Assembly: GCF_027812955.1 (NCBI RefSeq)
Contig: NZ_JAPYZV010000004.1
Span: forward strand, 62,001 to 126,000
DNA: 64,000 nt
Source of the DNA: Pedococcus sp. 5OH_020
Lineage (GTDB): Bacteria > Actinomycetota > Actinomycetes > Actinomycetales > Dermatophilaceae
Direction of reading: 5' to 3'
Part shown: in pieces, positions 30,751-42,195 of the stretch
Position numbering within the stretch: position 1 is the stretch's first letter
How the letters are laid out: every line of letters starts with the position of its first letter
Made by a program: the position numbers and the translations under genes
Notes under the pieces: model-generated
Told to the model about the DNA's origin: nothing
Seen by the model: only the letters and a program-made list of their open reading frames with translations
Databases searched by the model: none

Positions 30751-32105
30751 TACGACCAGTACACGCGGCCGGGGTTGAGGATTCCCCGCGGGTCGAAGAG
30801 CGCCTTGAGGGACCGCTGGCGCTCCAGCGAGGCGCAGCCCACCTCCTGCGGCAGCCACCGAGCCTTGAGCGAGCCGACACCGTGCTCGCCGGTGATCGTC
30901 CCGCCCATCGACAGGGCCACCTTGACGAGGTCGCCGAACGCCTCCTCGGCGCGGTGCCTGCTGGCCTCGTCCGCCGGGTCGTAGAAGAAGGACGGGTGCA
31001 GGTTCCCATCTCCACCGTGGCCGGACATCGAGATCTCGACCCCGGTGCGGGCGGAGATCTCGTGCCCCGCGGCGATGAGCCGGGTCAGATCGCCCACCGG
31101 GACGCACAGGTCCTCGATGAAGTGGGTGCCCTTGGCCACCAGCCCGTGGTGCAACGCCCGCCGGCCGGCGAGCAGGGCGTCGCTCTCCTGAGCGTCGTCG
31201 GCGACCGCCACCTCGGTCGCCCCTGCGTCGGTGAGGACCGCGGCATACCGCTGGACGTCCTCCGCCGTGTGGCCGGGCCGGTCGGACTGCACGATGAGCG
31301 CGGCGGCGCAGCCGGCCGGGAAGCCGAAGTCGGCGATCGACTGGACGGCGGCGATGGAGGTCGCGTCGAGGAGCTCGAGCAGGCTCGGGCGGTGGCGGTC
31401 TCGTCGCAGCCGGAGGATGGCCTCGCTCGCTTCGCCGAGGGTGGCGAAGGTGGCCAGGACGGTCAGCGCGGGGTCCGGTGCCGGTAGTAGCCTGAGCGTT
31501 GCCTCGGTGACGACGCCCAGGGTCCCCTCCGAGCCGACGAAGAGACCGGTGAGGTCCAGGCCTGCGACTCCCTTGGCCGTGCGGCGCCCGGTGCGCATCA
31601 CCTCACCGCCGGCCAGCACGACCTCGAGGCCGCGGACGTAGTCCGCGGTGACGCCGTACTTGACGCAGCACAGCCCACCGGCGTTGGTGGCGACGTTCCC
31701 GCCGATGGTGCAGAACGCCGACGAGGCGGGGTCGGGCGGGTAGAAGAGCCCCTGCGCGGCGGCCGCCGCCTTGACGTCCGCGGTCACCATGCCGGGGGAC
31801 ACGACGGCCAGACACTCGACCGGGTCCACGTCGAGCAGCGAACGGAGACGTTCGAGGCTCAGCACGATCCCGCCCTCCACGGCAACCGCACCGCCGGCGA
31901 GCCCGCTGCGAGCGCCTTGGGGTACGACCGGCGTACCCGTGTGGTGCGCGTAGGTCAGGACCTCCACGACGTCGTCGAGGTCTCGGGCGCGCACCACCTC
32001 GAAGTGGTCCGGGGCCGCGACACCGACCGACTCGTCGACAGCGTAGGTGGCCTTCACCTCCGGTTCGGTCACGGCACGGGCGGTGAGCGAGGAGGGCAGC
32101 GTCAC
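30750..32105 (-). CDS. FAD-linked oxidase (glycolate oxidase GlcD / D-lactate dehydrogenase-like)
   Basis: 451 residues with FAD_binding_4 and FAD-oxidase C-terminal domains. The N-terminal PCMH fold shows VVPQGARSGLAGGA and CTIGGNVATNAGGLCCVKYG; the C-terminal part has GHGGDGNLHPSFFYDP and GEHGVGSLKARWL. It oxidises a 2-hydroxy acid such as glycolate or D-lactate; which one cannot be told. GTG 32105 overlaps the S-component stop by GTGA, so it can be expressed from the B12-riboswitch operon, but it also has its own TACCCT hexamer six bases upstream. Confidence 0.88.
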   Translation of the reverse strand: MTLPSSLTARAVTEPEVKATYAVDESVGVAAPDHFEVVRARDLDDVVEVLTYAHHTGTPVVPQGARSGLAGGAVAVEGGIVLSLERLRSLLDVDPVECLAVVSPGMVTADVKAAAAAQGLFYPPDPASSAFCTIGGNVATNAGGLCCVKYGVTADYVRGLEVVLAGGEVMRTGRRTAKGVAGLDLTGLFVGSEGTLGVVTEATLRLLPAPDPALTVLATFATLGEASEAILRLRRDRHRPSLLELLDATSIAAVQSIADFGFPAGCAAALIVQSDRPGHTAEDVQRYAAVLTDAGATEVAVADDAQESDALLAGRRALHHGLVAKGTHFIEDLCVPVGDLTRLIAAGHEISARTGVEISMSGHGGDGNLHPSFFYDPADEASRHRAEEAFGDLVKVALSMGGTITGEHGVGSLKARWLPQEVGCASLERQRSLKALFDPRGILNPGRVYWS

Positions 32106-32992
32106 CCCTCTAGGGTATGCCGCGTGGCCGGCGCGTCCGTGAAGGTGACCTCGCTGTCGAACGCGGCCCGCCGAGCGGCGCGCCGCAGGGTGGCCAGGAT
32201 GGGCCGCGCTGTCGCGGCGACCAGGACGGCGTTCGTCAGGGCCCGCCCCACGTCCCACCACAGCGAGGTGGCGAGGGAGAAGACGAGGAAGCGGCGCAGG
32301 TTCTCGGCCGGTCCGGCGCCTGGGACGAAGGACAGGTCACCGCCCAGACCTGTGGAGAAGGGCCAGAAGGAGAAGTTGAGGGCCACGCCGTAGAGGAGGC
32401 CGGCCAGCGCTCCGTACCCGCACAGCAGGGGCACCTCCCATCGTCGCGGCATGCGAGGCAGCAGGCCGGCTCCGAGGCCCACCCAGGCCGCGCCCAGCAT
32501 CTGGTACGGCAGCCACGGTCCTACGCCGCCTGTGACCAGCGCCGAGGCGAACAGCGTCGTCGCGCCCAGGACGAACCCGAAGCCGGGGCCGAACACCCGG
32601 CCACCCAGGATGAGGAGGAAGAACACCGTCTCCAGCCCGGCGGTCCCGGCACCCAGGGGCCGCAGGGCGGCCCCGACAGCGGAGAGCACGCCGAGCATCG
32701 CGATGGCCTTGACGTCCAGACCGCCCTCGCTGATCTCGAAGAGCACGACGGCCATCAGCAGGGGGAGCAGGAGCGCGAAGACCAGCGGGGCGTCAGTGCC
32801 GCTACCGAGCCGGGAGCCGGCCCCCGCGAGCAGGGGCCAGCCGAATGCCAGCAGACCGGCGACGGAGACGAGGACCAGAGCCGCGGTCGAGCGCGGGCGC
32901 AGGGCGATGGCGCGTCGGGAGCCGGGGGCCGTCGAGCCGGAGGTCGTCGAGCCGGAGATCGTCGAGCCGGAGGTCGTCGAGTCGGACGTCAT
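32102..32992 (-). CDS. ECF transporter S component, probably cobalamin-specific (CbrT-like)
   Basis: 296 residues with an N-terminal Ser/Thr/Gly repeat tail (about residues 1-25) and six or so membrane segments. It is the substrate-binding subunit of an energy-coupling-factor importer. Conserved-looking stretches are GTAGLETVFFLLILGGRVFGPGFGF and NFSFWPFSTG. Substrate is inferred from the B12 riboswitch heading the operon and the transcobalamin-like surface proteins encoded with it; sequence alone does not prove it. Start ATG 32992 overlaps the ATPase stop by ATGA. The tail is encoded by four 15-bp repeats. Confidence 0.75.
   Translation of the reverse strand: MTSDSTTSGSTISGSTTSGSTAPGSRRAIALRPRSTAALVLVSVAGLLAFGWPLLAGAGSRLGSGTDAPLVFALLLPLLMAVVLFEISEGGLDVKAIAMLGVLSAVGAALRPLGAGTAGLETVFFLLILGGRVFGPGFGFVLGATTLFASALVTGGVGPWLPYQMLGAAWVGLGAGLLPRMPRRWEVPLLCGYGALAGLLYGVALNFSFWPFSTGLGGDLSFVPGAGPAENLRRFLVFSLATSLWWDVGRALTNAVLVAATARPILATLRRAARRAAFDSEVTFTDAPATRHTLEG
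32112..32117 (-). promoter_or_regulatory. -10 hexamer of the FAD-linked oxidase gene
   Basis: TACCCT, AGAGGG, GTG 32105: leaderless spacing inside the last codons of the ECF S-component gene. It gives the oxidase a transcript independent of B12 control. Confidence 0.5.
32931..32990. repeat. Four 15-bp tandem repeats encoding the N-terminal tail of the S component
   Basis: Units GTCGAGCCGGAGGTC (32931), ...GAGATC (32946), ...GAGGTC (32961) and GTCGAGTCGGACGTC (32976) keep the reading frame and encode repeats of Ser-Gly-Ser-Thr type. Copy number could vary among strains without breaking the gene. Confidence 0.85.
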
Positions 32993-34665
32993 GGCCGCCG
33001 CCCTACCGCAGCCTGCATAGCGCGCCGTACCTGTTCCACGGTGAGCAGGCGATGCGGCGCGACCACCTTGGCGACCTGCGGTGCGAAGGCCGGGGAGTCG
33101 CACAGGACCTCCGCCGTCGCCCCGTCGGCCACCACCCGACCCTCGGCGAGGACCACGACGCGGTCGGCTGCCACGGCCGCGAACTCCACGTCGTGGGTCG
33201 CCACCAGGACCGTTCGCCGGTCGTCGGCCAACGCCGCGAGGAGGACCCGGAGCGCCCGTTTCGCCGCGTAGTCCAACCCCCTGGTCGGCTCGTCGAGCAG
33301 CAGGACGGCCGGCGCGGGGGTGAGCTGGACCGAGAGCACCAGCGCGAGTCGCTGGCCCTCCGAGAGGTCGCGTGGATGGCGGTCGTCGGGCAGGCCCGGC
33401 GCCAGGCGGTCGAGGTAGCCACGGCAGGTGCCGTCCGGCGCGCCGGACTCACGGTCCGCCTGCCGGCACTCCGCACCGACCGACTCCCGGTACAGCAGGT
33501 CGGCGGCGCTCTGCGGCACAAGGCCCACCACCCCACGCCGCGACGAGGGCGGGAGGGTGGCAGGGTCGGTTGCCCTCGTCAGGCCCGCGGTGACCTCGAC
33601 GGCCCCCCCGCTGCGTGGGCCGGAGCCCTGAAGCGCCCACAGCAAGGAGGACTTCCCGGAGCCGTTGCGGCCCATCAGAGCCACCACCTCCCCGCTCGCC
33701 AACGCCAGGTCCACCCCAGCCACCGCGGTCAGGGCCCCATGCCGGACCTGCACGCCGGTTCCGCGAAGCAGGATCGACCGTGTGGTCGCACTTCCGGTCG
33801 GGCCCACCACGGGGTTCCGCCCCGGCGCGACGTCGTCCAGCGCCTCGCGCAGCGTCACGCCGGCACGCCGGCCGTCGCGGATGGTCAGGGGCAGGGGGGA
33901 CCAGCCGGCCCACCTGCCGAGCTCGACGAGGGGCGGCGCCAGTGGGAGGGTCGCGAGGACGTCGCCGGGCCTCCCCCAGGAGACCGTGCCCTCGCCGTCG
34001 ACGGACACCAGCCGGTCCGCCATCCCGATGACGCGTTCCAGCCGGTGCTCCGAGAGCACGACAGTGAGCCCCAGGTCGTGCACCAGGCGTGACACCGTGG
34101 CGAGCACCTCCTCCGCGCCGACCGGGTCGAGCGCGGAGGTCGGCTCGTCCAGCACGACGAGCCGCGGGCCGGCGGTGAGGACCGACCCGATGGCCACCCG
34201 CTGCTGCTGACCACCCGAGAGGTCCGCCAGTGGCGCTCGCCGCAGGTCCGCGATCCCGAGGAGGTCCAGCACCTCTTCGACCCGACGACGCATCACCGGC
34301 GCCGGCAGGGCGAGCTGCTCCAGCGTGTAGGCGAGCTCCTCCTCGACCGTGTCGGTCACGAACCCGGCAGCCGGGTCCTGGCCCACCACGCCCACCAGGG
34401 CGGCGAGGTCGCGGGGCTTGTGGGTCCGCGTGTCGAGCCCGCACACGGTGACCCGGCCGGACAGGTGACCGCCGGTGAAGTGCGGGACCGTGCCGTTGAC
34501 GGTCCCGAGCAGCGTGGACTTCCCTGCGCCGGTGGGTCCCGCCACAAGCACGAGCTCTCCCTCCTCGACGACCAGCGACGCCGCACGGAGCGCCGGCCGG
34601 CTCTGCCCGGCATACCGGACAGTCACGTTCTCGAGGGCGAGGCAGGGCTCGTGCGGTGACGTCAT
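32989..34665 (-). CDS. ECF transporter ATPase, two ABC domains in one chain
   Basis: 558 residues made of two fused ABC ATPase domains, equivalent to EcfA and EcfA'. Domain 1: Walker A GPTGAGKST (residues 43-51), signature LSGGQQQR, Walker B LVVLDEPTSALD, switch His in VVLSEHRLE. Domain 2: Walker A GRNGSGKSS, signature LSEGQRLAL (Gly to Glu change at the third position), Walker B VLLLDEPTRGLD, switch His in VLVATHDVEF. It powers uptake with the T and S components encoded on either side. ATG 34665 overlaps the EcfT stop by ATGA. Confidence 0.92.
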   Translation of the reverse strand: MTSPHEPCLALENVTVRYAGQSRPALRAASLVVEEGELVLVAGPTGAGKSTLLGTVNGTVPHFTGGHLSGRVTVCGLDTRTHKPRDLAALVGVVGQDPAAGFVTDTVEEELAYTLEQLALPAPVMRRRVEEVLDLLGIADLRRAPLADLSGGQQQRVAIGSVLTAGPRLVVLDEPTSALDPVGAEEVLATVSRLVHDLGLTVVLSEHRLERVIGMADRLVSVDGEGTVSWGRPGDVLATLPLAPPLVELGRWAGWSPLPLTIRDGRRAGVTLREALDDVAPGRNPVVGPTGSATTRSILLRGTGVQVRHGALTAVAGVDLALASGEVVALMGRNGSGKSSLLWALQGSGPRSGGAVEVTAGLTRATDPATLPPSSRRGVVGLVPQSAADLLYRESVGAECRQADRESGAPDGTCRGYLDRLAPGLPDDRHPRDLSEGQRLALVLSVQLTPAPAVLLLDEPTRGLDYAAKRALRVLLAALADDRRTVLVATHDVEFAAVAADRVVVLAEGRVVADGATAEVLCDSPAFAPQVAKVVAPHRLLTVEQVRRAMQAAVGRRP

Positions 34666-35753
34666 GCGGCGGCGCCACGGCGAGCGACGGGCGGCGGCGG
34701 CGCGAGCAGGGCCGGAGCCGCGCCGACAGCCAGGGCCAGGACGCCGGGCCAGGGGAGCGCCGGCCAGCCGAGCGGCTCCAGGGGCAGGCTGATGCTGGTC
34801 GGCTGATGAGCCGCCAGGACGACCATGAGGGTGCCGGCGGCCACTCCGGACCCGGCCACCGCCCACTCCGGTCCTGCCCAGGCGTCCGGACGGTAGACGG
34901 TTCGGTGCACGCCCCGTCCACCGACGTGCAGGCCCAGCGCGCACAGCACCAGCCCTGCCGCGAGCAGGGGCCACCCGGCGATGCCGGTGCTCGTCTGGTC
35001 CAGGACGGCGTACAGGCCTAGAGCGGCACCGAGCAGGCCCGTCAGCGTGAGGAAGGCCGTGAGCCGCCGCGTGGCGGGGCGCTGCGCCGCACGGCGACCG
35101 TAGCCGCGCGAGTCCATGGCCGAGGCGAGCAGCAGCGAGCGGTCGAGCGTGTCCTGCAGGACCGGTAGGGCGATGCGACCGACCGTTCGCAGGCCGCCCC
35201 CCTGCTCTCCCCGGAGGGCTCTCGCCCGACGCACGCGCAGCACGCTCTCCGCGAGCTGAGGCGCGACGCTGACCGAGATCACGACCGCCGTACCGATCTC
35301 GTGGAGGGCGCTGGGCAGCGTCCGCAGGAGGCGCTTGGGGTTGGCCAGGGCGTTCGCCGCTCCGATACAGACGATGAGTGTGGCCAGCCGAAGGCCTTCC
35401 GCCGCGGCAGCGAGCAGGCCCTCGAGGTACAGCGGGCCCAGCAGGGTGATGCCGGGCAGGTGGACCCCTGGCAGGGCGAGCAGCCGTATGGTGCCGGCCT
35501 TCTGGCCGACCAGCACGTGCAGGACCACCCGCATCAGGACGACGGCAGAACCGAGGGCGAGGTACAGGCGGAACGCCCGTGCCCACGGTGAGCTGCCCCG
35601 CTTGGCGACCACCACCATCCCGGTCACGCTCACCGTGAGGAGCAGCAACAGCGGGTTGGTGGTGCGGGACGCCGCGACCGCCATGCCGATGGCCCACGCC
35701 CACCAGCCGACCGGGTGCAGGTCGCGGGGCAGGACCGAGCCTGCGAGACGCAT
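34662..35753 (-). CDS. ECF transporter transmembrane T component
   Basis: 363 residues with six or more hydrophobic segments. EcfT couples the ATPases to the substrate-binding subunit through two short Arg-containing motifs; here VRRARALRGEQGG and AMDSRGYGRRAA fit those. The N-terminal LHPVGWWAWAIGMAVAAS is typical of CbiQ-like proteins. ATG 35753 is 4 nt after the stop of the DUF4430 gene. The C-terminal ~100 residues add extra hydrophobic segments not needed for the core fold; their role is unclear. Confidence 0.9.
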   Translation of the reverse strand: MRLAGSVLPRDLHPVGWWAWAIGMAVAASRTTNPLLLLLTVSVTGMVVVAKRGSSPWARAFRLYLALGSAVVLMRVVLHVLVGQKAGTIRLLALPGVHLPGITLLGPLYLEGLLAAAAEGLRLATLIVCIGAANALANPKRLLRTLPSALHEIGTAVVISVSVAPQLAESVLRVRRARALRGEQGGGLRTVGRIALPVLQDTLDRSLLLASAMDSRGYGRRAAQRPATRRLTAFLTLTGLLGAALGLYAVLDQTSTGIAGWPLLAAGLVLCALGLHVGGRGVHRTVYRPDAWAGPEWAVAGSGVAAGTLMVVLAAHQPTSISLPLEPLGWPALPWPGVLALAVGAAPALLAPPPPVARRGAAA

Positions 35754-35757
35754 CGGG

Positions 35758-36666
35758 CTATCCCGCGCTCCGCCGGCGCACCGCCAGGTACGCGGCGGTT
35801 GCGGCGACGGCGCCGACCAGGCCCAGGCCGGCGAGGAGCGAGGTCGGTGACCCGCCCGACGAGGTCGCGGCCGTGCGGCCGGCAGCCGGGGCCTGGTCCG
35901 GGCTGAGGGGAGCCGCGGAGACCCTCGTCCCGGTCGTGGAGGTGGCCGACGTAGTGGACGCAGCGCTCGTGGGTCGAGCCGAGCCGCGGGTCGCCTTGGC
36001 GGTCGCGCCGGTACGGGCCGGACCGCGTGTCGTCGTGCCGGGGGCGCGCGACGGGGCAGTCCCCGGGCTGCGGGGCGTCCCTGCACCCGACGAGGACGGG
36101 CTAGCGGCCGGGCCGGTCCTGCGCGACGACGGCCGGGTGGCAGGCGTCGAGGGCGTCGCGCTGCGCCTGGGGGTCGCGGTCAGGGTCGCAGTCGGGCTCC
36201 GGGTCGTCGGCGTGGTGGCCGCCCTCGCCGGTGGTGGCGTGCTCGGTGGCGCGCCGGCGCCGAACGCGAAGCCGAGCACGGTGCCGGGCGCCGGGTCGTA
36301 GTCGGCCACGCCCGAGCCGCTGTAGGTCCACGACCCACCCCGGGAAGCGTGGAAGAAGGCCCAGTAGGCGCTCGCCGGAGGCATCCGCTGACACGGGTCG
36401 CTGGCCGGGGCGCCGTTGATGCGGCACACCACCGTTCCGGGGTACTGCACCGGGCTGGTCACCGTAGCGACCGCCCGAAGGGCCGACATGGCCGACGAGG
36501 GGTCACCCCCTGCGCAGGACGTGGTGGAGGTGGACCCGTAGTCCACCACCACGGTGACGCCGGCAGTTCCCGAGCACGCTGATGCGTGCGCCGCGCCACC
36601 CGGCAGGGCGAGGCCACCGATCACCACGAGACCGGCCGCGGCGGTGAGCCGTGCGAGGGCCGCCAT
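35758..36666 (-). CDS. Surface DUF4430 protein, transcobalamin-like beta domain with C-terminal anchor
   Basis: 302 residues. A signal peptide (to about residue 28) is followed by a DUF4430 domain (about 30-137), the fold that forms the beta domain of intrinsic factor and transcobalamin. Family residues are visible: VVCRINGAPASDPC, MPPASAYWAFFHA, SWTYSGSGVADYDPAPGTVLGFAFG. A long Ser/Thr/Pro-rich spacer (about 138-270) then leads to one membrane helix (LLAGLGLVGAVAATAAYLAV) and a basic RRRSAG tail. It is held at the membrane outer face and probably caps bound cobalamin. Start shares one base with the upstream stop (TGATG). Confidence 0.82.
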   Translation of the reverse strand: MAALARLTAAAGLVVIGGLALPGGAAHASACSGTAGVTVVVDYGSTSTTSCAGGDPSSAMSALRAVATVTSPVQYPGTVVCRINGAPASDPCQRMPPASAYWAFFHASRGGSWTYSGSGVADYDPAPGTVLGFAFGAGAPPSTPPPARAATTPTTRSPTATLTATPRRSATPSTPATRPSSRRTGPAASPSSSGAGTPRSPGTAPSRAPGTTTRGPARTGATAKATRGSARPTSAASTTSATSTTGTRVSAAPLSPDQAPAAGRTAATSSGGSPTSLLAGLGLVGAVAATAAYLAVRRRSAG

Positions 36667-38324
36667 CAGGCGTGCGCGCCCTTGCGCCGGGCCAGGACGG
36701 TCGCCACGAGTCCCCCCAGGAGCAGCAGGGTGCCGAGCAGGACCAGGCCTGAGACCTCCGCACCGGTGAACGCCAGGCTGCCAGGAGCCGCGGAGGCCGC
36801 TGGGACCGAGGCTGGGTCACTGCGTTGGTCACTGGCTGCGTCGCCTGTGCCGGCGCTACCAGCGGGCTGCCCGCTCGTACTCGAGGCGGTGGTGGTAGCC
36901 GTGGTGGTGGTCGTCGTGGTCGTCGTGGTCGTCGGCTGGCAGCTGAGGGTGGGTGCCGTGGCGGCTGCCCCTTCGGCGGACACGGTGAGCAGGGACCCGC
37001 CGGCCAGGCCGAGCGTGGCCTGCGGGGTGGCGCGAAGCGTACGGTCCAGCAGGCCCTGGTCACCGGGCTTCGTCCTCGCGAGGGAGAAGTCGGCAGCGGT
37101 GAACGCGATGCCCCCGCGCAGGCGAGCCGCGAAGCGGCAGTCGAACTGGAGGCTCGCGAGGAAGGACTGGGCGCGCTTCTGCTGAGCCGCCCAACCCGCC
37201 GCTGCGAAGGCCTGGGCCGCCACGCCGGTGGTGTTGGCGTTCGCCGCGGGAGCGGTGGGGTCCGCGTTGCCGATGCCGCCGTCGGCGCGCTGGTGCGTCG
37301 ACAGGTAGGTGAGGGCCTTGACCGTGAGGGCGTCGTCCGCACCGCGCAGGCCCACCAGCACCTGGGTCGCGAACGCCGTGGCGTCCGGGTCGCTCGCGCA
37401 GGCGCCACCTTTGGGCCCGAGGTCGCCACGGAAGCCGTCGTCGGCGCACTGCTGGTCGAGGAGGAACTGGGCGGCCGCGCCGGGCACGGAGCCGGTGGCA
37501 CGGCCGAGCGCGATGAGGTCGAGCGACTGGCCGATGGTGTTGGAGTAGTCGCCGTACGCCGACTTGTCCGAGAACCGGCCGTCGGGGCCCAGCAGCCCCT
37601 GCAGCCTGCTGACCAGGTCCTGACCGCCGAACTGCGTCGGGTCGCCACCCTGAGCGACGACTCCCAGGACGAGCTTGCCGAGCGGGCCCGCGTAGGTCTC
37701 GGGGCTGGACGGGTTCTTCGCGCCCGGGTCGCCGACGTACGCGTTGACGTGGGCGGCGAGGTAGTCCGTCGCCGCGTCCGCCTCGTCCAGACCTACGCCC
37801 GCCCCGTCAAGACCCAGGACGGCGTCGATGGTGTTGCCGCCGTCGAAGAAGGTCGAGCCCGGGTAGGTGTAGCGGTCGCCGCGGGCGGCCAGCGTGCGCG
37901 CGATGAACCCGCCGGCGTATGCCGCCTGGACGGAGGGCCTTGCGGCCACGCGGGCCGACTGGCGGGCGGGCAGGTGCGCGAACGGAACCTGCGTGCCCGT
38001 CGCCAACGCCCTGCTCGCCGTGCTTTCGTGCGTCCCGGGCGACGTGCCGGTGCCCGCTGCCGCCGTCGCTCGGTCCGAGCGCGTCGTCGGCGCGGCCCCC
38101 GTCGTGACGGGCGTGGTGCTGACGGGCGTCGTGCTGGTCGGCGTGGTGGTGGGCGTGGTGGTGGGCGTGGTGGTGCTGGGCGTGCTGGTCACGGCGGTGG
38201 TCGTCGTGCGTGTGGGTGCGGGCGAGGTCCCGGCCGCGAGCGCGGCGCCGGGCGCCGCGAGCGCCGCGCCGACGGCCAGCGCGAGGACGGCGGCCGGACG
38301 GGCGCGTCGGATGGTGTGGTGCAT
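36666..38324 (-). CDS. Wall-anchored alpha/alpha-barrel protein, intrinsic-factor-like, LAFTG sorting signal
   Basis: 552 residues. Signal peptide (to about 31), a Thr/Pro-rich spacer (about 37-80), an all-helical repeat region (about 120-430) resembling prenyltransferase/squalene-cyclase and the transcobalamin alpha domain (repeats such as AAQFLLDQQCADDGFRG and LTYLSTHQRADGGIG), a second Thr-rich spacer (about 455-475), then LAFTG (517-521), a membrane helix and RRKGAHA. LAxTG is the class E sortase motif, so the protein should be linked to the wall. With the DUF4430 partner it could bind cobalamin. ATG 38324 has GAGAGG 5-6 nt upstream. First gene after the B12 riboswitch. Confidence 0.82.
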   Translation of the reverse strand: MHHTIRRARPAAVLALAVGAALAAPGAALAAGTSPAPTRTTTTAVTSTPSTTTPTTTPTTTPTSTTPVSTTPVTTGAAPTTRSDRATAAAGTGTSPGTHESTASRALATGTQVPFAHLPARQSARVAARPSVQAAYAGGFIARTLAARGDRYTYPGSTFFDGGNTIDAVLGLDGAGVGLDEADAATDYLAAHVNAYVGDPGAKNPSSPETYAGPLGKLVLGVVAQGGDPTQFGGQDLVSRLQGLLGPDGRFSDKSAYGDYSNTIGQSLDLIALGRATGSVPGAAAQFLLDQQCADDGFRGDLGPKGGACASDPDATAFATQVLVGLRGADDALTVKALTYLSTHQRADGGIGNADPTAPAANANTTGVAAQAFAAAGWAAQQKRAQSFLASLQFDCRFAARLRGGIAFTAADFSLARTKPGDQGLLDRTLRATPQATLGLAGGSLLTVSAEGAAATAPTLSCQPTTTTTTTTTTTATTTASSTSGQPAGSAGTGDAASDQRSDPASVPAASAAPGSLAFTGAEVSGLVLLGTLLLLGGLVATVLARRKGAHA

Positions 38325-38404
38325 GGTGCCTCTCAGAGCGAGCGGTGTCGCGACGGTGGCACCGGGACCAGAGAAAGACGAAACCCCCGGGAGCTGCACG
38401 CAGT

Positions 38405-38590
38405 GCAGTCTCGGGGGGCGGCTCGGACTGGTGTCCGGGCTCCGCCCCGCGTACCTCGACGGAAATGGAGCCGCTCCGCGTCCCAGGCAGTCCGGCTCGC
38501 CGCCAGGAAGGCGGCCTACGGTTGCGGGTCAGCGCCGGAGTTGGACCGGCTTCCCCTGGGTGCGCGTCGTGGTGCTACCCGAAGGCAGCG
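38405..38590 (-). ncRNA. Cobalamin (B12) riboswitch
   Basis: Read on the minus strand, the conserved core GGGGAAGCCGGT (ends near 38545), CCGGCGCTGACCCGCAACCGT (38525-38540 area) and the B12 box GAGCCGGACTGCCTGG (38483-38498) occur in the canonical order. A strong GC hairpin at 38415-38448 (GTCCG/CGGAC and GGGGCGG/CCGCCCC pairs) follows and is the probable expression platform. The first start codon downstream is ATG 38324. This class turns genes off when adenosyl- or methylcobalamin is plentiful. Boundaries are approximate. Confidence 0.9.
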
Positions 38591-38659: not shown

Positions 38660-38890
38660 CAGGCACAGACCCGGCTATCACCGGTGAGCCTCCGGAAGAA
38701 CGGATCCGCCGCCGACGGGTCTCAGTAGAACCGGACGGGTGGGTCCGTCATCGCCCGGGGCAAGAGCGGTCGTCCGCGCGACAAGCTGGTCGTGGCGCTG
38801 GGCGGCAAGCGAGGTGGTACCGCGGTGCCGTCGGGAGGTCCGGCGACGTCGTCCTCGTGCAGGTGCACGCGAGCGATGTGAGGACTGCCG
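38660..38890 (+). ncRNA. T-box leader of ileS (tRNA-Ile sensing, translational)
   Basis: Stem I carries an ATC isoleucine specifier (38678-38680) in a short loop, followed by GGAAGAACGG. The T-box proper is AGGTGGTACCGCGGTG (38812-38827), with the TGGT bulge at 38815-38818 that pairs with the tRNA ACCA end. Downstream, GTCCTC (38851-38856) is exactly complementary to GAGGAC (38880-38885), which contains the ribosome site of ileS. Thus uncharged tRNA-Ile would free the ribosome site. Ultrashort stem I, translational T-boxes on ileS are known in actinobacteria. Confidence 0.9.
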
Positions 38891-38895
38891 ACACC

Positions 38896-41800
38896 ATGAC
38901 CTATCCCAAGGTCTCCTGCGACGCAACCGCCTTGACCCCCGGGTCGTCCCGTGAGCCGGTCGGCGTACCGTCCGCGCCAAGCTTTCCCGCGATCGAGGAG
39001 CGGGTCCTGCGGTACTGGGACGAGGACGGCACCTTCCTCGCCTCCGTGGAGAACCGGTCGGCCGGGCAGGACGGCGACAACGAGTTCGTCTTCTACGACG
39101 GCCCCCCGTTCGCGAACGGGCTGCCGCACTACGGCCATCTCCTGACCGGGTACGTCAAGGACCTCATCCCGCGCTACCAGACCATGCGGGGACGCCGGGT
39201 GGAGCGCCGGTTCGGCTGGGACACCCACGGCCTTCCCGCCGAGCTCGAGGCCATGAGCCAGCTGGGCATCAAGACGAAGGACGAGATCCTCGAGCTGGGC
39301 ATCGAGGAGTTCAACGCCAAGTGCCGGGAGTCGGTCCTGAAGTACACCGACGAGTGGCGCGAGTACGTCACGCGCCAGGCACGCTGGGTCGACTTCGACC
39401 ACGACTACAAGACGCTCAACCCCGACTACATGGAGAGCGTCATCTGGGCGTTCAAGGCGTTGTACGACAAGGGCTACGTCTACGAGGGCTTCCGTGTGCT
39501 GCCCTACTGCTGGAACGACCAGACGCCCCTGTCCAACCACGAGCTCCGGATGGACGACGACGTCTACCAGATGCGTCAGGACCCCGCCGTCACGGTGGGC
39601 CTGCGTCTGGAGACCGGCGAGCTGGCGCTGGTCTGGACGACGACGCCCTGGACGCTGCCGTCCAACCTGGCCGTGATGGTGCACCCGGACATCGAGTACG
39701 TGGTGGTCGAGACGGACCTTCCGACCGGTCGGCTCGAGCGATACCTGATCGGCGCCGAGCGGCTCCGGGCGTACGCACGGGACCTGTTCGGTGATGCCAA
39801 GGCCGACGTGGAGTCCTTCGTCGTCGAGAGGCTGACCGGCCGCGACCTGTTGGGACGGTCGTACACGCCGCCCTTCTCCTACTACGTCGGGCACGAGAAC
39901 GCACACCGGGTGGTGGAGGCCGACTTCGTGACGACCGGCGACGGCACCGGGCTGGTGCACAGCGCCGGCGCGTTCGGTGAGGACGACAAGATCGTCACGG
40001 ACCGCGAAGGTATCGAGCCGGTCATGCCGGTCGGCGCTGACGGTCGCTTCACCTTCCCCGTGGCCCAGTACGAGGGCATGCTCGTGTTCGACGCCAACCT
40101 GCCGATCATGGACGACCTGAAGGCCGCCACCCGCGGCGAGCCCTCCCACGGGGCCGTGACCGACGGCACCGTGCTGCTGCGGCGCGAGACCTACGACCAC
40201 TCCTACCCGCACTGCTGGCGCTGCCGCCAACCGCTCATCTACAAGGCTGTGTCGAGCTGGTTCGTGGAGGTCACGAAGGTCAAAGAGCGGATGTTGGAGC
40301 TCAACGAGCAGATCGAGTGGGTTCCGGACCACATCAAGCACGGGCAGTTCGGCAAATGGCTGGAGAACGCCCGCGACTGGTCGATCTCCCGCAACCGGTT
40401 CTGGGGCAGCCCTATCCCCGTGTGGAAGTCGGACAACCCCGAGTATCCCCGCGTGGACGTGTACGGGTCCTTCGAGCAGCTGGAGCGCGACTTCGGCGTC
40501 ACCGTCGACGACCTGCACCGGCCGTTCATCGACCGGCTGACCCGGCCGAACCCGGACGACCCGACAGGGCGGTCGACCATGCGTCGGGTCGAGGACGTGC
40601 TGGACGTCTGGTTCGACTCCGGGTCGATGTCCTTCGCGCAGGTGCACTACCCGTTCGAGAACGCCGACTGGTTCGAGCACCACTTCCCTGGTGACTTCAT
40701 CGTCGAGTACATCGGCCAGACGCGCGGCTGGTTCTACACGCTCCACGTCCTGGCAACGGCGCTGTTCGACCGGCCGGCCTTCTCTGCGTGCGTGTCCCAC
40801 GGCATCGTCCTGGGCTCCGACGGGCAGAAGATGTCCAAGTCGCTGCGCAACTATCCGGACGTGCGCGACGTCTTCGACCGGGACGGCGCGGACGCGATGC
40901 GCTGGTTCCTGATGTCCTCGCCCATCCTGCGGGGCGGGAACCTCGTGGTGACCGAGCAGGGAATTCGCGACGGCGTCCGGCAGGTCATCATCCCGCTGTG
41001 GAACACCTGGTACTTCTTCTCGCTGTACGCCAACGCCTTCCGGGGCGGTGAGGGGTACGACGCGAAGTGGTCGACGGCCTCGACGGACCGGCTGGACCAG
41101 TACCTCCTCGCCAAGCTGGGGCAGTTCGTGCAGGACATGCAGGACCAGCTCGACGTGTACGAGGTGGCAGCTGCGTGTGACACCACACGCAGCTTCCTCG
41201 ACGTGCTGACCAACTGGTACGTTCGCCGGTCTCGCGAGCGCTTCTGGGACACGGGCGGCGGGTCTGGTGCGGAGCAGGCCTTCGACACGCTGTACACGGC
41301 GCTCGAGGTCGTATGCCGCGTTGCCGCGCCGTTGCTGCCGCTGACCACCGAGGAGATCTGGCGTGGCCTTACCGGGGGCCGGTCGGTGCACCTGACGGAC
41401 TGGCCCGTGGCCTCTGACCTTCCCTCGGACGACGCTCTGGTGGCGGGGATGGACCGCGCCCGCGAGATCTGCTCCGTGGCCTCGTCACTGCGCAAGGCGA
41501 ACGGCCTGCGGGTCCGGCTCCCGCTGCGGGACCTCACGGTGGTGGCCGCAGACGCAGCGGGGCTGAGACCTTTCGGGCCGATCGTGGCGGACGAGGTCAA
41601 CGTCCGGACAGTCACGCTACGGGACATCAGCGACGCCAGCGAGGCCGACTTCGGCGTGTCCCAACGGCTCACCGTGAACGCCCGGGCCGCCGGCCCGCGC
41701 CTCGGTCGGGACGTGCAGCAGGTCATCAAGGGCAGCAAGTCAGGCGACTGGTCAGTGGCGGAGGACGGGACCGTGACCGCCGGTGGGCTCACGCTCGTAG

Positions 41801-42195
41801 CAGGCGAGTACACGCTGGAGACGGTCGTCGACGCAGAGAAGGAGACCGGTTCCCGGGCCACAGCCATGCTGCCGGGCGGCGGCTTCGTCGTGCTCGACAC
41901 GGAGGTCACCCCGGAGCTGGCCCAGGAGGGCCTCGCCCGAGACATCGTGCGCGCGGTGCAGCAAGCGCGCCGCGACGCCGGCCTTCAGGTATCGGACAGG
42001 ATCTCTCTCACGGTGACCGGGTCACAGGCGGTCTGGGAAGCCACCGTTGCGCACCAGAGCCTGATCGTGGAGGAGACCCTCGCGACGCAGTTCGGGTCGG
42101 CGCCGCAGCTCGAGGCGCTGCCTCAGCGTTCCGACGTCACGGAGACGACCGTAGGCGACGGCGAACCGGTGCGTATCAAGGTGATGCGGCTCTGA
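38896..42195 (+). CDS. ileS: Isoleucyl-tRNA synthetase, IleRS2 type
   Basis: Charges tRNA-Ile; 1099 residues. HIGH motif as PHYGHLLTG, editing domain with [18 protein letters not shown], a zinc-like [10 protein letters not shown] knuckle, and KMSKS motif as [18 protein letters not shown]. The NYPD after KMSKS and overall length are features of the eukaryote/archaeal-like IleRS2 group, which is usually resistant to mupirocin. ATG 38896 lies 10-12 nt after the GAGGAC site that the T-box can sequester. Its 3' end overlaps the convergent DUF222-HNH gene by 20 nt. Confidence 0.95.

Follow-up and report, generated by a model that had tools for sequence, protein, structure and literature searches.

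We identified, in a 64,000-nucleotide stretch of DNA from Pedococcus sp. 5OH_020 (hereafter the window), a minus-strand operon at positions 32102-38555 that is best explained as a whole as a riboswitch-controlled uptake operon for vitamin B12 (cobalamin), with capture at the cell surface by transcobalamin-like proteins; we put the probability of this reading at roughly 75%. The operon is headed by a cobalamin riboswitch, followed by genes for a surface toroid protein, a beta-grasp protein, EcfT, a fused EcfAA' and an S component of the energy-coupling factor (ECF) type. A preliminary description of the same DNA had named the riboswitch and the five genes, and all were recovered in their places on the minus strand; its ECF transporter also held up, with profile matches for T, for both ATPases and for the S component. 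The features are as follows.

38430-38555, minus strand: cobalamin riboswitch RF00174 (model positions 46-168; 32.0 bits against a gathering score of 31.5)
38384-38417, minus strand: G+C-rich hairpin between the aptamer and the first gene (fold of 38360-38440: -40.2 kcal/mol, z -3.87)
36666-38324, minus strand: surface toroid (alpha/alpha) protein of 552 amino acids, with a signal-peptide-like start, Thr-rich linkers, toroid domain, LAFTG, hydrophobic helix and basic tail
36939-37928, minus strand: toroid domain of the 552-residue protein (iterated hidden Markov model; putative fold taken from the homologous L121 model)
36762-36776, minus strand: LAFTG sorting motif of the toroid protein, read from the translation (a class E sortase is encoded elsewhere in the genome)
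35758-36666, minus strand: membrane-anchored beta-grasp (transcobalamin-like SLBB) protein of 302 amino acids, with a C-terminal hydrophobic helix and no sorting motif
36253-36579, minus strand: SLBB beta-grasp domain (AlphaFold2 predicted local distance difference test [pLDDT] 93.1, predicted template modelling score [pTM] 0.87; best PDB matches transcobalamin)
34662-35753, minus strand: EcfT, CbiQ family (PF02361, 34.0 bits, cut-off 25)
32989-34665, minus strand: fused EcfA-EcfA' ATPase with two ABC_tran stretches (143.8 bits, cut-off 25; TIGR04520 at E 9.9e-73 and 244.9 bits, under the cut-off of 315 for that profile)
32102-32992, minus strand: ECF S component (PF12822, ECF_trnsprt, 35.6 bits, cut-off 30.7)

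At the gene junctions, the toroid and beta-grasp genes overlap by one base (TGATG), a 4-base gap separates the beta-grasp gene from EcfT, and the EcfT/EcfA and EcfA/S pairs both overlap as ATGA; translational coupling is therefore plausible.

In the model that we favor, scarcity of B12 would lead the riboswitch to permit expression of the operon. The wall-held toroid protein would correspond to the alpha domain, and the membrane-held beta-grasp protein to the beta domain, of transcobalamin or intrinsic factor. The two surface proteins would then trap B12 on the outer side of the membrane, most likely clasping it from opposite sides, and the captured B12 would be handed to the S component, so that EcfT and the fused ATPase could move it into the cytoplasm.

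Predicted control by cobalamin and the probable need of the host for B12

The match to RF00174 at the operon barely exceeded the gathering score, and no other cobalamin riboswitch was found in the host genome (150 of 340 first-look candidates scored). A terminator scan found nothing; the hairpin at 38384-38417 is a possible expression platform for the riboswitch.

We then surveyed riboswitches upstream of related operons. ECF genes were present in 135 loci, of which 114 offered at least 900 bases before the operon, and 111 remained after three exact duplicates were removed. To be counted, a locus needed a hit on its own strand no more than 1.5 kb upstream, either to a strict core pattern of the B12 box or to the Rfam cobalamin clan; pattern hits had to precede the operon's first domain, and hits by Rfam alone any domain of the chain. 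The strict DNA pattern alone covered 66 of the 114 loci and was too strict, hence the addition of Rfam. With both, a cobalamin riboswitch or core motif was found upstream of 96 of the 111 loci, 65 by pattern and 31 by Rfam alone. The core pattern matched 86 times in 2.3 Mb, with 67 of these matches inside the upstream stretches; shuffling the bases of these sequences left about 7 matches in all. Five loci (L040, L041, L047, L050 and L051) did not enter the count, as no ECF genes turned up there; L047 and L050 nevertheless carry a cobalamin riboswitch.

We also observed changes of riboswitch class. The best match before the operon was to AdoCbl-II in three Lentzea loci (L108:5007-5078, L112:4808-4879 and L139:4911-4982) and to the AdoCbl class in L133:2081-2231, L142:2479-2624 and L146:2407-2552; the switch class may have been swapped while the genes of the operon stayed. 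Separately, toroid genes distant from ECF genes were found behind a cobalamin riboswitch of their own at L050:5972-7180 and L111:16631-17888, the latter being the third toroid of its locus. L050 lies in genome G011, which has a full operon (L037) too.

The gene content of the host pointed in the same direction. Its genome of 4.4 Mb, 100% complete by estimate, encodes MetH (430 bits by profile search) and three MM_CoA_mutase-family matches over the cut-off; these profiles matched 7 and 8 of 14 control genomes, respectively. Profile searches of the host returned neither CbiC nor CobS, and the same profiles matched 7/14 and 10/14 control genomes. Without these two, the host should be able neither to assemble the corrin ring nor to complete a cobinamide. 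Judged by gene content, the host thus apparently uses B12 yet cannot make it. As for a BtuF-like protein, the host genome gave no more than a hint, a Peripla_BP_2 protein (40.6 bits) whose start has no visible signal peptide. B12 had been proposed as the cargo, and the riboswitch, the B12-dependent enzymes and the failure to find CbiC or CobS support this; import of B12 is very probably the function of the operon.

Two surface domains, split and fused

The preliminary description had likened the two surface proteins to the two halves of animal B12 carriers. We approached this likeness through predicted structures. A relative, L121, carries the toroid and SLBB domains in one chain and was modeled at pLDDT 90.1 and pTM 0.80, with an all-helical toroid domain. 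The model was searched against 350,542 PDB chains, and the best 50 of 528 matches were examined. Among these, ranks 1-12 and 14 were transcobalamin or intrinsic factor (E 3.4e-10 to 1.6e-7), and squalene-hopene cyclases entered at rank 13 (E 1.6e-7), mostly behind the B12 carriers. The SLBB domain of the window was modeled directly: PDB ranks 1-6 were transcobalamin (probability 0.99-1.00, E 0.013-0.04), including an isolated human beta domain at rank 3, and ranks 7-8 were the Ruminococcus protein 3u7z. The ranking of the fusion, with its homologous toroid, and that of the window SLBB domain support the proposed likeness to transcobalamin and intrinsic factor.

Known sequence families came close to both proteins without reaching their cut-offs. 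The toroid protein scored 17.5 bits against Prenyltrans (cut-off 26.5) and 79.3 bits (E 2.6e-22) against the NCBIfam family SCO2321_fam (NF053823, cut-off 300); the beta-grasp protein scored 27.0 bits against SCO2322_fam (NF040672, cut-off 85). Its earlier label of "membrane-anchored DUF4430 protein" stood in part: the hydrophobic tail agrees with a membrane anchor, but Pfam DUF4430, which we take to be PF14478, gave no match at E<=1. It is the predicted structure, not a sequence profile, that would justify a DUF4430-type label.

The description of the clamp domains as split also proved apt, with two genes in the window and a single chain in some relatives. Both domains occurred in one open frame in nine frames among the 140 loci examined. 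The toroid comes before SLBB, the order known from animals, in L032, L114 and L121, and in the latter two a single fused gene replaces the two genes of the window, directly before EcfT-EcfA-S. The reverse order, SLBB then toroid, was found in L086, L096, L136, L157 and L168, with the L136 fusion on the strand opposite its ECF genes; an additional SLBB gene is present in each of these five loci. The ninth frame, L102, was not accepted as a clean fusion, since its two domains are separated by hydrophobic stretches and a sorting-like motif. At L032:5715-11428, an anchorless toroid-SLBB fusion is followed by single genes for a toroid and an SLBB protein, each with a hydrophobic tail, and then by EcfT; the leader contains the cobalamin-box core pattern, with an Rfam score below gathering. 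The L032 operon possibly encodes a free carrier plus a tethered pair.

Next, we considered how the two proteins are held at the surface. The toroid protein of the window ends in LAFTG, a hydrophobic helix and a basic tail, and the single sortase-family match in the host genome is a class E sortase (266.3 bits, cut-off 160), an enzyme class that presumably cuts LAxTG. The beta-grasp protein has a hydrophobic transmembrane tail and no sorting motif. These observations support the separate anchoring that had been suggested for the pair. Among 100 unique unfused toroid open reading frames (ORFs), 31 had LAxTG/LPxTG, 33 a membrane tail and 36 neither or another ending; among 142 such SLBB ORFs, 104 had a membrane tail, 36 none or another and 2 a motif (possibly by chance), with ORFs cut at locus ends falling into the none/other class in both sets. 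A membrane location is thus common for SLBB proteins, and a wall location is not general for toroid proteins. As far as sequence motifs can tell, a toroid in the wall with a beta-grasp protein in the membrane fits the window and its near kin.

To place the operon in its wider distribution, we counted its genes in several samples. With a threshold of E<=1e-10, the S component was present in 158 of 296 genomes sampled evenly from the class. From these 158, 39 loci were hand-picked, six of them from one small-genome family (f32), and the 38 in which the sequence upstream of EcfT extended to 3.5 kb or more were used for counting: SLBB was found in 36/38 and a toroid in 23/38. A second set comprised the best 80 of at least 505 loci from named genomes and metagenome-assembled genomes; 21 were dropped as too short, and the 59 with enough upstream sequence gave SLBB in 58 and a toroid in 49. 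In the family of the host, SCO2321 profile matches occurred in 22/59 genomes, some of them cyclase-like (e.g., L051). Twenty host-family regions were examined: all 15 with ECF genes had both toroid and SLBB, and the remaining five had toroid-like genes only.

An SLBB gene of the SCO2322 type was found in 26 of the 38 class-sample loci, 13 with a toroid and 13 without. We compared the following proteins with the window-type SLBB profile.

L178, L179, L180, L181, L183-L187, L191, L194, L197, L201: SCO2322-type proteins tested, 13/13 matching the window-type SLBB profile in swapped order

In these proteins, the N-terminus corresponds to SLBB profile positions 74-111 (20-36 bits) and the C-terminus to a stretch ending at positions 62-66 (3-12 bits alone). 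When each protein was joined to a second copy of itself, one run across the junction scored 38-58 bits, and none of 260 doubled shuffles exceeded 8 bits. L178 matched NF040672 at 171 bits over positions 1-143 of 144. The swapped order, together with the match of L178 to the family profile, makes the SCO2322 family look like a circular permutant of the transcobalamin-like SLBB domain, at least at the level of profile alignments.

Weighing the model

Several observations weigh against the proposed uptake operon and its two-part clamp. No riboswitch was detected at 15 of the 111 surveyed loci, all 15 examined with Rfam, and two of them (L048 and L118) are one locus counted twice. The S-component profile matched no ECF chain among PDB sequences, and the S component itself hit the generic ECF_trnsprt profile only; a crystal structure of ECF-CbrT has been described (PMC5997447). 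The Pfam DUF4430 profile recognized 0/69 homologous beta domains at E<=0.01. By sequence alone, neither the toroid and SLBB profiles nor the single proteins ever reached transcobalamin in the PDB: toroid profiles best matched squalene-hopene/terpene cyclases, the SLBB profile returned three antibody chains at E 0.03 or worse, and the single window proteins gave nothing meaningful. The structural evidence is also modest in places. E-values for the window SLBB model spanned 0.013-0.21 (probabilities 0.96-1.00), none reaching E 0.001, and the L121 fusion aligned with transcobalamin at TM-scores of only 0.34-0.41 by query length and 0.37-0.48 by target, with a root-mean-square deviation of 22-24 A. 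The L121 match would therefore be one of domain by domain; either its domains are placed differently from those of transcobalamin, or the prediction places them poorly. Finally, 15 of the 38 class-sample loci (six of them f32) and 10 of the 59 genome and metagenome loci showed no toroid in the vicinity of the operon. The two-part clamp therefore cannot be required everywhere; the beta-grasp protein is near-constant and the toroid common yet optional, which weakens an obligatory split clamp.

We rate joint clasping of B12 by the toroid and beta-grasp proteins at about even odds, because the fusions and the gene overlap favor it and the toroid-free operons and separately riboswitched toroids (L050, L111) count against it. 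A more specific version, which we offer tentatively, is that two clamp halves on separate tethers clasp B12 across the gap between wall and membrane and feed it into the ECF importer, the membrane half being circularly permuted (SCO2322) in other lineages, with or without a toroid partner.

The same near-constancy of SLBB and optional toroid would also be expected if the beta-grasp protein alone were the B12 receptor of the ECF transporter and the toroid an independent surface store or bait for B12, useful in some species. The riboswitched toroid genes away from ECF genes (L050 in G011 and the third toroid of L111) fit this arrangement. We consider it unlikely, given the fusions in both domain orders, the TGATG overlap in the window and a PDB ranking that spans both domains.

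A different question is what the machinery carries. The same proteins might serve a B12 precursor, another cobamide or another ring compound: in a reply to a reviewer, the authors of PMC1796856 admit non-B12 ligands for this domain clade, and CbrT of Lactobacillus takes up cobinamide as well as cobalamin (PMC5997447). Cobinamide would be of little use to a host in which no CobS was found, and the cobalamin riboswitch or core motif at 96 of 111 loci argues for B12 itself; a natural cargo other than B12 is thus improbable. A third alternative would make the toroid protein a passenger of the B12 operon, either an enzyme akin to terpene cyclases or a structural component of the wall; by sequence, squalene-hopene cyclases are indeed the best matches of the toroid profiles. 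This is hardly credible for a protein with a signal-peptide-like start, an anchoring tail, relatives fused to SLBB and a fusion model that ranks transcobalamin above cyclases, and a terpene cyclase was rejected on the grounds of apparent secretion, anchoring and these fusions.

Relation to known systems and a neighboring leader

The general idea of such B12 capture is not new. Burroughs et al. (2007; PMC1796856) proposed SLBB and toroid proteins with CbiO/CbiQ as B12 scavengers and as the source of the animal carriers. Their systems share with ours the same two domains, fused in either order, the surface location and the CbiO/CbiQ neighbors. The clade that they describe comprises low-GC Gram-positives, planctomycetes and euryarchaea, and the one mention of actinobacteria in the passages covered concerns ComEA. 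In contrast, the operon reported here is actinobacterial, distributes the domains over two differently anchored proteins and includes a riboswitch and an S gene. Human and other animal transcobalamin and intrinsic factor are alike in the predicted toroid and beta-grasp folds; they are single secreted chains, whereas the window encodes two chains with predicted tethers, and the related fusion, as modeled, fails to superpose on them over its full length.

Other B12 systems are more distant. Mycobacterial BacA is a single ABC protein of another kind, without surface proteins, and BtuG and BtuH of Bacteroides are Gram-negative outer-membrane systems with other folds. Likeness lies in B12 import in an actinobacterium for BacA (PMC3603451, PMC10960864) and in surface capture of B12 before import for BtuG/BtuH (PMC6143338, PMC8941943). 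ECF-CbrT of Lactobacillus delbrueckii is likewise an ECF-type importer linked to B12 auxotrophy; unlike the window operon, it sits in an nrdJ-cbrS-cbrT-pduO cluster (PMC5997447).

SCO2321_fam and SCO2322_fam are names given by NCBI without a function, and the window proteins match both below cut-off; SCO2322_fam proteins appear to differ from the window beta domain by the circular permutation. PMC1949818 mentions circular permutation for another beta-grasp domain only, in the passages covered. Among the open-literature matches listed, the titles and opening lines of abstracts contained no actinobacterial case of such B12 capture, no characterized actinobacterial B12 importer besides mycobacterial BacA and no function for SCO2321 or SCO2322, the sole paper naming SCO2321 being concerned with transdermal peptides; most subscription papers were outside this scope, and priority therefore cannot be claimed. 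Against the idea published in 2007 for other bacteria, what is new is the actinobacterial split variant and the permutation.

Our analysis names likely B12 import genes for actinobacteria, the S component occurring in 158 of the 296 class genomes. It also suggests a likely function and fold for two families, SCO2321 and SCO2322. With relatives of the human B12 carriers known from bacteria in split as well as fused form, the origin and working of the clamp would become testable in culturable bacteria.

Next to the operon lies the divergent ileS gene (38857-42195, plus strand). Rfam at gathering score reported no T-box in the window. The ileS leader contains, at 38813-38825 on the plus strand, the exact T-box-like sequence GGTGGTACCGCGG (chance expectation with up to one mismatch, 0.26), which we take to be the T-box signature.

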